Assembly (NCBI GenBank): GCA_015057705.1
Contig: SVDU01000012.1
Coordinates: 1 to 64,000 of the forward strand
Reading direction: 5' to 3'
Length of the DNA stretch: 64,000 nt
Source of the DNA: Paenibacillaceae bacterium
GTDB taxonomy: Bacteria; Bacillota; Clostridia; Lachnospirales; Lachnospiraceae
Shown here: positions 16,158-34,993 of the stretch, in pieces
Numbering within the stretch: the stretch's first letter is position 1
Layout: each line of letters begins with the position of its first letter
Program-made: the position numbers and the translations under genes
The notes under the pieces: model-generated
Database searches by the model: none
Told to the model about the DNA's origin: nothing
What the model saw: only the letters and a program-made list of their open reading frames with translations

Positions 16158-16949
16158 ATGAATATGTTAAAAGAAAGGAGGAATTATGAAAATCAATTGC
16201 TGCCCTATGATTTTCATAATTACTTTACTATGGGGAAAGTTCCGGCTTATATGGTTGTTCATGATTTAATTAAATTAAAGATTAAAGATGGAACCTATCC
16301 TGTTTCAGAATTCCTTCCTACAGAACCAGAGCTTGAAAAGATATACAAAGTGAGCCGCACTACTATCAGAACTGCCATGGAAATCCTGAAGGATGAAGGT
16401 CTTGTTGAAATCAGGCAGGGGAGGGGTACAATCGTACTGGACTCCAGAGCTATTCAATCTTTAAACAAAGTCACCTCAGTTACTGAATGTCTTCGCAACA
16501 GGGGATTTGATGTCCGAACCAAAAGCATGTATATTGATATTATTCACGCCACAGAAAAGCTGGGAAAAGAGCTTAATCAGCCTATCGGTACCCCAATAGC
16601 CAGAATACAACGGATTCAACTGATTAATGAAAAACCAATAGCCATCATTAAAGATTACTTACCTTATGCTCTGGTTCCCAATATAGAGCAGTTTACAAAC
16701 AAATTCAACGGTCTCTATGAATTTTTAGAGCAGCAATATCATTTGGAGATCGAATCTGCCGACGACAAAATCTTTGCAAAATCTGCTGACTTTGCAGAAT
16801 CAGAGATGCTGGCGGTCTTACCGGGTACTGCTCTTTTGTGTATCCAGCGGATCTGCTACAAGGGAGAGAAACCGATCTTTTCTGATGATGTATGCATTCT
16901 GGGCGATCAATATGAACTTTCTATTTCATCCAAAGGCCGATATAAATAA
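16158..16949 (+). CDS. GntR-family (HutC/UTRA) transcriptional regulator
   Basis: 263 aa from ATG 16158; an internal ATG at 16230 (MGKVPAY...) is where homologous proteins usually begin. 'VVHDLIKLKIKDGTYPVSEFLPTEPELEKIYKVSRTTIRTAM' and 'GLVEIRQGRGTIV' form the winged HTH. Residues about 100-260 are a UTRA ligand domain ('IARIQRIQLINEKPIAIIKDYLP'). Such proteins respond to sugar phosphates or related small molecules. Neither start has its own ribosome site. The only strong one, AAAGGAGG at 16174, serves a different frame, so synthesis may depend on that leader. It stands alone and converges on the GTPase-NYN gene. Confidence 0.8.
   Translation: MNMLKERRNYENQLLPYDFHNYFTMGKVPAYMVVHDLIKLKIKDGTYPVSEFLPTEPELEKIYKVSRTTIRTAMEILKDEGLVEIRQGRGTIVLDSRAIQSLNKVTSVTECLRNRGFDVRTKSMYIDIIHATEKLGKELNQPIGTPIARIQRIQLINEKPIAIIKDYLPYALVPNIEQFTNKFNGLYEFLEQQYHLEIESADDKIFAKSADFAESEMLAVLPGTALLCIQRICYKGEKPIFSDDVCILGDQYELSISSKGRYK
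16182..16221 (+). promoter_or_regulatory. 13-bp perfect inverted repeat over the leader start codon
   Basis: AATTATGAAAATC (16182-16194) and GATTTTCATAATT (16209-16221) are exact complements around a 14-nt loop. The left arm contains the leader ATG 16186 and abuts its ribosome site. As DNA it is a good dyad operator; as RNA it would hide the start codon. Confidence 0.65.
16186..16269 (+). CDS. Possible 27-aa leader peptide inside the GntR 5' end
   Basis: ATG 16186 follows AAAGGAGG with a 4-nt gap, the best ribosome site in this region. The frame, +1 relative to GntR, encodes MKINCCPMIFIITLLWGKF and eight more residues, mostly hydrophobic, and ends in TAA 16267-16269. It overlaps the GntR start region including the ATG at 16230. 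It could be a regulatory leader ORF, or a sign that the GntR start has been shifted by an indel. Confidence 0.4.
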   Translation: MKINCCPMIFIITLLWGKFRLIWLFMI

Positions 16950-17008: not shown

Positions 17009-19657
17009 TCAGGACTCTTTCCTGGCCGCTTCTTTTAACTGTTCTTTCGTTTCATCTGACAGAGAATCAAGCAGATAATTACGCTGACTTGGTCTGGATT
17101 CCTGAAAATCTTCTGCCACTCTCTTATTTGCCACTTCCATCTCAATCTTTAATTCTCTGGCAGATAACAGGGCACAGCCGGCTCCTCTTACGATCATCTG
17201 CTGCAGACCATCGGAGGTAGCTACCGTGATCCGGTATTTTCCATTGTTATCATGAGCAAATCTTTCAATATAATGATCGGCTGTCTGCGCCTCTTTCGTA
17301 TATACCAGATGGATATTGTGATAGGCAATCATTTCTTCCCTGTGTTCTTTTACCCGGTATGCATCAAATACGGCTATGATACTGCATTTGCGGATCGCCT
17401 GATAATTACACAGCTGATCCAGAAGCTTCATTCTTGCACCATCCATATTATCTTCTGCCAGTTCGGCAAGTTCCGGCCATGCAAATACAATGTTATAACC
17501 ATCTACAAGGAGGTATTCTTCCCGATGCTCTGCCTGCCTTGGTTCATGATAGACAGGCTCCCGGCGCACCTCATACACAGGCCGTTTTCTTTTCCATTCT
17601 GTCCGCTTCCCTCTGTTAGCATAGAAGGTGCTTTCAATAATCCGGTCGATTTCTTCCAGACTCATAAGTGGTGCTTCCCGGCTGGCTGAACGGCTGTCTC
17701 TTGTCTCCTCAATCACAGATGACTGGGTCAGTTTTAGAAATGATTCCAGATGCATGTGGTTTTTTACCTGATACCAGGGAACTACAAAACCGGCGCCATG
17801 GGAGCAGAATACTGATCCAGAGGGATTGTCCGGATCGGTTTCTGAATTATAACCGGATTCCTTTATTACAGCTTCCGGATCATGGCATGGCTCATAGCCT
17901 TTTAAGGTGCAAAACAGCCTTCCCATACCTCTGGAGTATGCCGATACCTCTTTCTGGTAATTTCTCATGGTAAATACCGGAGCACTGCCGGTAAGAACTG
18001 CGGTTTCACCGTCTGTATGGGTGATCTCACAGGTTCCAGACATCTTTTCGATGTCTGTCATCGCTCTTCCAACCAGATTTTCCGGTAGTTCCAGGGTAAA
18101 ACCATAATAGGGCTCCAGCAGAACCGATTGTGCTTCTTTTAAGCCCTGCCGCACCGCCCGGTATGTGGCTTCCCTGAAATCTCCGCCTTCTGTATGTTTT
18201 TGATGAGCTTTCCCCGACACAAGGGTAATTCTCATATCTGTAATTGCAGATCCAGTGAGGACGCCTTTATGATTTTTTTCCTCCAAATGAGTCAGTACAA
18301 GCTTCTGGTAGTTTTTGGCCAGCAGATCCTCACTGCAGGCTAAACAAAATTCCATACCACTGCCTTGTTCCCCAGGTTCAAGCAAAAGATGGACCTCTGC
18401 ATAATGTCTCAGCGGTTCAAAATGACCCACACCTTCCACAGGATTTTCAATGGTCTCTTTGTACACAATCCTTCCCGTATCAAAGGATACCTCCACTCCA
18501 AACCGCTCTAAGATCAGGGTTTTTAATATCTCAATCTGTATTTCCCCCATGATCTGTGCCTGAATCTCCTGTACGTGTTCATCCCATACAATATGAAGTT
18601 CCGGCTCCTCTTCTTCCAACTGGCGGAGTTTTGGAAGCATTTGTCTTGGGTCACAGCCTTCCGGTAATGCAATCTGATATGACAGAACCGGTTCCAACAC
18701 CGGTGATTCATAGGCTGCCTCAAAACCAAGCCCCTCACCTGGTCTTGTCTTAGTAAGCCCGGTTACTGCACAGATGCAGCCGGGAGTAACTTCATTCACT
18801 GCCTCGTATTTTTCCCCGGAATAGATGCGGATCTGGTTGATTTTTTCCTCCCAGACTCCGTTGGCCAGGGTATTCTTTACACTGAGGGATCCGCCGGTAA
18901 GCTTTAGGTAAGTCAGCCGGTTTCCCTGGTCATCTCTTGTTATTTTAAATATTTTTGCTCCGAATTCTGGGGGATACTCCGGTATCAGGGCGTAATCCCT
19001 GATTCCTTTCATCAGTACTTCTATTCCCTGTAATTTCAGAGCAGAACCGAAAAAGCATGGAAATACAGTCCGGCTTTTAATTCCCTGCCGGATCTGGTTC
19101 CCGCTTACCAGGCCGGTCTCCAAATATTCATCCATCATGCTTTCGCTGCACATGGCAAGCTGATCATAAAAGCCATCTGTATCATTCAGAGAAAAATCGA
19201 TACAGCTGTCATGAAGCTGCTTTTTGACCTCTCTCATCAATCTGTCCCGATCGGCGGCCGGCTGATCCATCTTATTAATAAAAAGGTAAACAGGGATCTG
19301 ATACATGGATAAAAGACGCCATAAAGTTCTGGTGTGTCCCTGTACTCCGTCTGCGCCACTGATTACCAGTATGGCATAGTCCAGCACGCGAAGGGTCCGC
19401 TCCATCTCCGCACTGAAGTCCACATGCCCCGGAGTATCTAAAAGGGTGATTTTAAGATCTCCCATTTCAAAAACTGCCTGTTTGGAAAATATGGTGATCC
19501 CTCTGGCTTTTTCCAGCTCGTAGGTGTCTAAGAATGTATTTTTATTGTCAACTCTTCCTGGCTTACCGATCTTCCCGCTTGCATAAAGAATTCCTTCTGA
19601 CAGCGTGGTCTTACCTGCATCGACATGAGCCAGTATTCCTATGGTTAATTGTTTCAT
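17009..19657 (-). CDS. TetM-like ribosomal translation GTPase fused to a YacP/Rae1-type NYN domain
   Basis: 882 aa. Residues 1-650 follow the TetM/TetW/EF-G layout: P-loop AHVDAGKT 10-17, switch I 'RGITI' 52-56, 'DTPGHVDF' 74-81 and 'NKMD' 128-131, then the beta-barrel and EF-G domains III-V. A linker rich in charged residues leads to residues 713-880, a NYN/PIN-like nuclease domain resembling YacP: 'EYLLVDGYNIVFAWPEL' with Asp 719, 'AVFDAYRV' with Asp 765, 'TADHYIERF' with Asp 794 and 'ATSDGLQQ' with Asp 816. YacP (Rae1) is known as a ribosome-A-site mRNA nuclease in Bacillus. So this may couple A-site GTPase action to mRNA cleavage (inference). Tetracycline resistance is not established. 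Single gene. Confidence 0.85.
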   Translation of the reverse strand: MKQLTIGILAHVDAGKTTLSEGILYASGKIGKPGRVDNKNTFLDTYELEKARGITIFSKQAVFEMGDLKITLLDTPGHVDFSAEMERTLRVLDYAILVISGADGVQGHTRTLWRLLSMYQIPVYLFINKMDQPAADRDRLMREVKKQLHDSCIDFSLNDTDGFYDQLAMCSESMMDEYLETGLVSGNQIRQGIKSRTVFPCFFGSALKLQGIEVLMKGIRDYALIPEYPPEFGAKIFKITRDDQGNRLTYLKLTGGSLSVKNTLANGVWEEKINQIRIYSGEKYEAVNEVTPGCICAVTGLTKTRPGEGLGFEAAYESPVLEPVLSYQIALPEGCDPRQMLPKLRQLEEEEPELHIVWDEHVQEIQAQIMGEIQIEILKTLILERFGVEVSFDTGRIVYKETIENPVEGVGHFEPLRHYAEVHLLLEPGEQGSGMEFCLACSEDLLAKNYQKLVLTHLEEKNHKGVLTGSAITDMRITLVSGKAHQKHTEGGDFREATYRAVRQGLKEAQSVLLEPYYGFTLELPENLVGRAMTDIEKMSGTCEITHTDGETAVLTGSAPVFTMRNYQKEVSAYSRGMGRLFCTLKGYEPCHDPEAVIKESGYNSETDPDNPSGSVFCSHGAGFVVPWYQVKNHMHLESFLKLTQSSVIEETRDSRSASREAPLMSLEEIDRIIESTFYANRGKRTEWKRKRPVYEVRREPVYHEPRQAEHREEYLLVDGYNIVFAWPELAELAEDNMDGARMKLLDQLCNYQAIRKCSIIAVFDAYRVKEHREEMIAYHNIHLVYTKEAQTADHYIERFAHDNNGKYRITVATSDGLQQMIVRGAGCALLSARELKIEMEVANKRVAEDFQESRPSQRNYLLDSLSDETKEQLKEAARKES

Positions 19658-34869: not shown

Positions 34870-34881
34870 ATAATAGTTAGT

Positions 34882-34976
34882 AAGAGTGGCTGTCCCTACG
34901 TTGGCATTACCCAAATCAGGTTATAAGGGTCGAAGTTCTTTACTTCCTCTCAGCCGGGTCACCAGCTCCCCAAAAC
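34882..34976 (-). promoter_or_regulatory. TPP riboswitch (THI element)
   Basis: On the minus strand the conserved blocks occur in order: GGGGAGC near the 5' end, GGCTGAGA, GACCC, ACCTGAT, then GGGTAATGCCAACGTAGGGA. These are the defining pieces of the TPP-binding aptamer. A terminator hairpin follows, and thiM begins about 75 nt downstream. High TPP should stop transcription of thiMED. Confidence 0.95.
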
Positions 34977-34993
34977 ATTATTGAATTTTCTCG

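Follow-up and report, generated by a model that had tools for sequence, protein, structure and literature searches.

A 64,000-nucleotide stretch of DNA (positions 1 to 64,000 of the forward strand of contig SVDU01000012.1, GenBank assembly GCA_015057705.1; hereafter the window) from a genome deposited as Paenibacillaceae bacterium and placed by GTDB in the Lachnospiraceae encodes an 882-amino-acid (aa) protein in which a GTPase resembling elongation factor G (EF-G) and the Tet ribosomal protection proteins is joined to a YacP/Rae1-type NYN nuclease. This fusion is the only YacP copy in the fused genomes checked (28 of 28 in a sample of the phylum; all 11 in the genus of the window's genome). 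Within that genus, a genome carries either the fusion or a separate GTPase–YacP pair, never both. Being the sole YacP and one gene in place of two, the fusion points to a putative ribosome-clearing factor rather than a plain tetracycline-resistance gene. Its parts, in order from the N-terminus, are as follows.

17009..19657, minus strand: whole gene of the 882-aa GTPase–nuclease fusion, a single uninterrupted open reading frame (ORF) of 882 codons
18992..19648, minus strand: GTPase (G) domain, residues 4–222 (Pfam GTP_EFTU, E 2.8e-51)
18740..18961, minus strand: EF-G-like domain II, residues 233–306 (Pfam EF-G_D2)
18482..18694, minus strand: EF-G-like domain III, residues 322–392 (Pfam EFG_III)
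18128..18475, minus strand: domain IV, residues 395–510 (Pfam EFG_IV, E 8.4e-20)
18176..18214, minus strand: tip loop of domain IV, residues 482–494, GKAHQKHTEGGDF, aligned with GSYHDVDSSEMAF of EF-G and GLYYSPVSTPADF of Tet(O)
17879..18124, minus strand: domain V, residues 512–593 (Pfam EFG_C)
17750..17878, minus strand: conserved tail motif, residues 594–636, with invariant residues in the fused alignment; it also closes the un-fused GTPases
17516..17749, minus strand: variable charged linker, residues 637–714 (62–121 aa among 109 fused proteins)
17027..17512, minus strand: YacP/Rae1-type NYN nuclease domain, residues 716–877, with D719, D765, D794 and D816 (Pfam; 5mq8 and 5mq9)

The first-pass annotation, made from the DNA letters and naming no strand, had read the protein as a TetM/EF-G-like GTPase followed by a YacP-type NYN domain, and Pfam matches over residues 4–593 and 716–877 agree. 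The AHVDAGKT, DTPGHVDF and NKMD motifs are all present, and the protein, whose five domains are of EF-G type and whose G1, G3 and G4 are intact, falls in the EF-G/Tet branch of translational GTPases. Its C-terminal part matches NYN_YacP (PF05991; E 3.6e-53; 180.4 bits against a gathering cut-off of 24.6; positions 1–164 of the 166 in the profile) as well as the solved YacP of Bacillus subtilis (5mq9, E 4.4e-24; 5mq8, E 5.2e-24; 139 residues aligned), with D719, D765, D794 and D816 falling, by hand count on the alignment, on chain positions 7, 53, 81 and 104. For the GTPase part, the best match by sequence among solved structures was Tet(O) (E 7.2e-75), followed by EF-G (5.1e-69 and weaker). 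No Pfam domain was reported for residues 594–636, i.e. the tail motif.

Fused homologues were collected from 21 other genomes, 80 named public contigs and genomes of the same genus. All 21, two of which come from the same family, are encoded by one ORF of 857–904 aa. The public-contig scan returned at least 599 pattern matches and at least 591 confirmed relatives, and each of the best 80 likewise has one ORF, of 807–1080 aa, covering GTPase and NYN (in L104 the spanning ORF lacks the first 78 residues); Lachnospiraceae or Oscillospiraceae are frequent in their titles, which also mention Anaerovorax, Fusibacter and others. Single spanning ORFs in other genomes reject a sequencing artefact merging two genes, a danger that the first-pass annotation had raised. 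The four aspartates it had singled out as candidate catalytic residues are kept in 109 of 109 aligned fused proteins and in all 20 and 24 stand-alone YacP rows compared (near-copies L143, L145 and L151, identical stand-alone rows and L183 were omitted). P-loop, DTPGH and NKxD are retained in the 109 fused proteins with few exceptions: A14 is serine in 12, H11 and H78 are replaced once each, N128 is threonine in four, and one row is missing the P-loop columns.

Averaged over the 109 fused proteins, the fraction of the majority residue was highest in domain IV (0.81), followed by the G and NYN domains (0.69 each), domain II and the tail motif (0.67 each), domains III and V (0.64), the linker (0.30) and the C-terminal end (0.26). 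S615, F617, G621 and W628 of the tail motif are present in 109 of 109. The un-fused GTPases measure ~650 aa, L133 terminating right behind the tail motif, and the aligned stand-alone YacP proteins of the genus 173–182 aa; the fusion thus contains each of the two proteins whole, with a linker between them. In locus L183 (3014–5699, genome G430; also L227), GTPase and NYN occupy two overlapping frames of the same strand, GTPase first, which could mean that the copy is split, that the linker contains a frameshift or that the sequence is in error.

Each of the 25 genomes of the window's genus contains exactly one YacP domain. In 14, this is a stand-alone YacP (ORFs of 174–195 aa) accompanied by an un-fused GTPase of 45–47% identity; in the other 11, the window's own genome included, the fusion is the sole YacP, and no un-fused GTPase of the same type was found in any of the 11 (E<=1e-60); G601, one of these, carries a Tet-type gene (31%). 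Eight of the 11 have a full-length fusion, and in two it is truncated at contig ends (G608, G609). Several stops break it in the remaining copy (L131 in G618, an assembly with 89% completeness and 6% contamination), which may be a pseudogene or the product of read errors.

The former gene sites were sought through neighbouring genes in eight of the 11 fused genomes, and four (G000, G607, G605 and G598) were fetched; the gene names gatC, aspS, MATE, yacP, mntP, LysM and xerC were assigned by eye from the sequence. At the yacP site, genomes with the pair are represented by L196 (gatC-aspS-MATE-yacP-mntP); in four of four fetched fused genomes, the stretch from aspS to mntP contains neither yacP nor MATE. 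At the GTPase site, L199 has the order LysM-GTPase-xerC, and no GTPase gene was present in four of four fused genomes: LysM and xerC adjoin in G605 (163 bases apart) and G598 (59 bases apart), and other ORFs occupy the site in G607 and G000, with no LysM gene seen in the latter. In L196 (3278–5320), the stand-alone yacP of the genus sits after the gene for a transporter resembling the multidrug and toxic compound extrusion (MATE) type.

Beyond the genus, YacP was detected in 219 of 398 genomes of the phylum sample and the fusion in 28, spread over 12 family codes and encoded by ORFs of 857–937 aa. All 28 (22 among the YacP matches listed, the other six read directly as one frame) have exactly one YacP match; a Fisher test for the missing second YacP in fused genomes yields p of about 5e-9, a guide only, since the genomes share ancestry and the other 191 YacP genomes may include a few fusions. 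Two genomes with two YacP matches each (G205, G300) are not fused. The family sample has YacP in 179 of 200 genomes (a single match in 175 of these 179); among the matches listed, most lie within ORFs longer than 840 aa. The GTPase was found (E<=1e-120) in 161 of the 200 genomes, i.e. in 161 of 179 with YacP and 0 of 21 without. Of the 18 YacP-positive, GTPase-negative genomes, four with long ORFs were fetched and all four proved to be fusions; the family GTPase search therefore misses some, which could also have made the 0 of 21 an underestimate. Ten family genomes were judged by ORF length (174–260 aa), among the matches listed, to have a stand-alone YacP, leaving aside G430 (split copy) as well as G475 and G585 (NYN close to the start of a contig); seven of these have the GTPase (Fisher test against 0 of 21, p 4.6e-5).

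Trees of the GTPase and NYN parts were built from the query and 54 of 108 fused ORFs, hand-picked for spread, the GTPase tree with a Tet-like outgroup. Fused GTPases form one group with the un-fused L182 as immediate sister; all un-fused proteins lie outside except the split copy L183, which falls within. As inferred from the trees, the separate pair probably came first and gave way to the fusion. Support in the NYN tree is weak; there, rows cluster strongly by fused or stand-alone state, and starred branches force the fused label to change three times. Own-genus fused GTPases group (Shimodaira–Hasegawa-like approximate likelihood ratio support, SH-aLRT, 99) with family codes f15, f19, f59, f62, f73 and f134 and with Anaerovorax and Fusibacter, apart from two further fused representatives of their own family. 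An approximately unbiased (AU) test rejects a single clade of four own-genus fused rows and two same-family rows (p 0.008), giving weak support for transfer from outside because only two same-family rows entered. The grouping in the GTPase tree suggests that the fusion may have been transferred into part of the genus. An un-fused relative of ~50% identity (L214, 5001–6920), carrying a TetM-type annotation, was seen near an rpsN copy on Ligilactobacillus salivarius plasmids larger than 200 kilobases. In a second GTPase tree, from which 21 of 84 rows were omitted, this protein places inside the fused group, as secondary loss of the nuclease would have it; the AU test (tests run without L183) leaves a single fused clade without it unrejected (p 0.44), and such loss was not adopted.

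The GTPase part was also compared with Tet determinants. Against the 775-bit cut-off of NCBIfam NF012153, the window protein scores 418.9 bits, another fusion (L042) 438.6 and three un-fused relatives 380.9, 407.7 and 430; the two Tet genes of the genus (L166, L167), serving as positive controls, reach 817 and 811.4. Of the remaining four Tet-like outgroup proteins, two were scanned and also score below 775 (L168, 457.3; L169, 613.7), so that falling short of the cut-off is not peculiar to the fused clade. The tip loop of the window protein reads AHQKHTEGGDF, not YSPVSTPADF as in Tet(O), and the two Tet genes of the genus share with Tet(O) the loop YYSPVSTPADFR. HT[EDQ]GGDFR occurs in 54 of 55 fused rows; among 23 un-fused GTPases, KHTxGGDFR was found in 20 and EHTHGGDFR and VHTVGGDFR in one each, one being unmatched by the pattern. 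H485 is present in 105 of 109 fused proteins, and EF-G has histidine in the same column. Identity to the genus Tet genes is 30–31%, and that between an un-fused relative and two EF-G proteins 26–28%. The SPV residues have a part in the dislodging of tetracycline by the domain IV loops of Tet. That these loops dislodge the drug is stated in the consulted part of PMC4342817. The other four Tet-like outgroup rows comprise L168, with EHTHGGDFR, and three unmatched by the pattern; L168 (863–2869, genome G334) lies outside the clade and combines an HTxGGDFR tip loop with a score below the cut-off; this Tet-like GTPase may represent another translational GTPase family labelled Tet.

We propose, with moderate confidence, that the fusion acts as a chromosomal ribosome factor, i.e. 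a tethered, GTPase-guided Rae1 that would cut A-site messenger RNA (mRNA) on stalled ribosomes. By analogy with the EF-G/Tet family it should bind ribosomes and hydrolyse GTP. On stalled or slow ribosomes, the GTP form would bind the factor site and insert domain IV into the A site, domain IV itself then occupying that site as in EF-G and Tet; upon GTP hydrolysis, domain IV would withdraw, and the NYN domain, kept near by its tether, would move into the emptied A site and cut the mRNA, leaving the ribosome to be recycled by transfer-messenger RNA or another rescue route. Its role would accordingly be to clear ribosomes and to degrade mRNA in a codon-dependent manner, and not to displace tetracycline. 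A more tentative version, possible but short of our preferred reading, is a GTP-clocked endonuclease whose domain IV probes the stall before handing the A site to the tethered Rae1, in which case stand-alone Rae1 would use the un-fused GTPase as its partner; no report of such a partner was found in the literature searched, sources seen in part included. The general proposal draws on the intact domains and active-site residues, the single YacP of fused genomes, the split within the genus, the spread of fusions over 12 family codes, the distribution of the GTPase in the family (0 of 21 against 161 of 179), a domain IV that is the most conserved part and a linker that is among the least, the EF-G-type tip histidine of both fused and un-fused proteins and the scores below the Tet cut-off. 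Cleavage of A-site mRNA by the fusion is modelled on Rae1, which is able to attack A-site mRNA in B. subtilis according to the consulted part of PMC12320835.

Several observations weigh against this proposal. Domain IV and NYN cannot share one A site, so that a hand-over along the linker is needed. An un-fused GTPase occurs in G357 and G312 (L176, L177), where no YacP was found, and three of the ten family genomes with stand-alone YacP show no such GTPase; pairing is therefore not obligatory, and as a rule across the phylum it is rejected by G357 and G312. Outside the family, four of six genomes with an un-fused GTPase have YacP, near the base rate (191 of 370, about 52%). Stand-alone YacP is also common, including in genomes that yielded no such GTPase, and Rae1 thus does not always need it.

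That pairing is not obligatory outside the family favours a rival reading, in which the two parts were joined for co-expression or economy, with an elongation aid of the EF-G/LepA kind and an NYN domain for Rae1-type decay or RNA maturation remaining mechanically uncoupled. A long, unconserved linker suits this idea just as well as it suits a tether, the partners are encoded at unlinked sites in the genus (pair in 14 of 25 genomes, two of them viewed at both sites), and the un-fused L. salivarius plasmid protein sits among fused ones in the tree, though a placement outside also fits the data. We nevertheless regard an economy fusion as unlikely, given that fusions occur in 12 family codes, that one gene of the genus substitutes for both old genes together and that the GTPase count is 0 of 21 where YacP is missing from the family sample.

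A resistance protein against tetracycline or another A-site antibiotic that has acquired an RNase, the reading put forward in 2015, draws support from Tet(O) as best solved match, from that suggestion itself (PMC4342817, seen in part) and from RefSeq, where plasmid homologues are named 'TetM/TetW/TetO/TetS family tetracycline resistance ribosomal protection protein' or 'translation factor GTPase family protein'; drug-induced attenuation would moreover have room in the terminator-like hairpins upstream of 18 of 102 fusions (33 of 431 control ORFs). This reading appears improbable to us in view of two fusions far below a cut-off that the genus Tet genes surpass, a tip loop without SPVST, an identity to those Tet genes little above that of an un-fused relative to two EF-G proteins, a single copy per genome, at least 80% of the protein in just two of 72,556 plasmid records and a neighbourhood in which even the most frequent family reaches 10 of 104 loci. 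A translation-shutoff or anti-phage effector, for which one could cite the capacity of a ribosome-aimed nuclease to stop translation and two unannotated metagenomic 'phage' records holding most of the protein, is very hard to reconcile with YacP in 179 of 200 family genomes, nearly always as a single match, with the missing recurrent neighbourhood and with the PADLOC scan of three proteins (a fused, an un-fused and a stand-alone one), in which no defence family matched at E<=0.001; membership of an anti-phage family was accordingly rejected. The first-pass annotation, sound in its domains and aspartates, was also right to doubt a simple tetracycline determinant and to expect tetracycline-type database labels, and its translation-shutoff idea found no support.

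No conserved operon was seen around the fusion, the commonest neighbour family being a MATE-type transporter, named by eye (10 of 104 loci). A mobile resistance element is unsupported by the plasmid count, and transcription attenuation was not established, as the upstream hairpins may be terminators of the preceding gene only. In the window, a gene for a GntR-type-looking regulator (16158–16949, plus strand) converges on the fusion, and a similar gene lies near the fusion at three loci of the genus (L201, L202, L203). A thiamine pyrophosphate riboswitch (Rfam RF00059, 71.5 bits) is located farther away (34875–34982, minus strand).

The architecture itself is already known, having been in print since 2015: one sentence in the consulted part of PMC4342817 (Atkinson 2015) describes Tet proteins of ten Clostridiales species that gained an NYN domain resembling YacP; the paper puts forward resistance by way of an RNase and lists a test for ribosomal RNA cleavage by clostridial Tet proteins as future work. 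By Pfam and homologue titles, the present protein is of that kind, with the same architecture and bacterial group, as compared with the published description and not with sequences; the published account, unlike ours, proposes a resistance role. No other paper joining NYN/YacP with Tet GTPases was found in the literature searched (Condon 2018, on Rae1 distribution, may mention the fusion). New here are the sole-YacP status, the split of the genus into fusion and pair, with neither old site holding its gene in the four fused genomes fetched, and the sub-Tet scores together with an EF-G-like tip histidine; no earlier statement of the first two or of the Tet-negative tests was found in the literature searched, some of it consulted in part.

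Among known systems, Rae1/YacP of B. subtilis shares with the fusion the NYN domain by sequence match, the four acidic positions and usually one copy per genome, but its solved form is a 181-residue protein, whereas here the nuclease is the C-terminal domain of a GTPase behind a linker of 62–121 residues. Tet(O) and Tet(M) have the same domain order (G-II-III-IV-V) and GTPase motifs; unlike them, the fusion, at ~30% identity, has no SPVST loop, stays below the Tet cut-off and bears an extra tail motif, linker and nuclease. EF-G has the same five domains and the histidine at the tip of domain IV, but the fusion is a separate family by score and carries a nuclease. SmrB of Escherichia coli is an SMR-type rather than an NYN nuclease and is not known to carry a GTPase. 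It is recruited to collided ribosomes, as described in the consulted part of PMC10897456, and the fusion would likewise be a nuclease brought to stalled ribosomes, with no homology claimed.

How Rae1 finds ribosomes is not stated in those parts of the literature that were consulted. A fusion standing for separate Rae1 and GTPase predicts a GTPase partner of Rae1, which is testable in laboratory strains. The data further suggest that a number of clostridial 'tetracycline resistance' annotations are wrong, which matters for resistance surveys. If the proposed function is true, ribosome quality control would gain a nuclease-bearing translational GTPase in a sizeable share of clostridia, of which many derive from gut samples.

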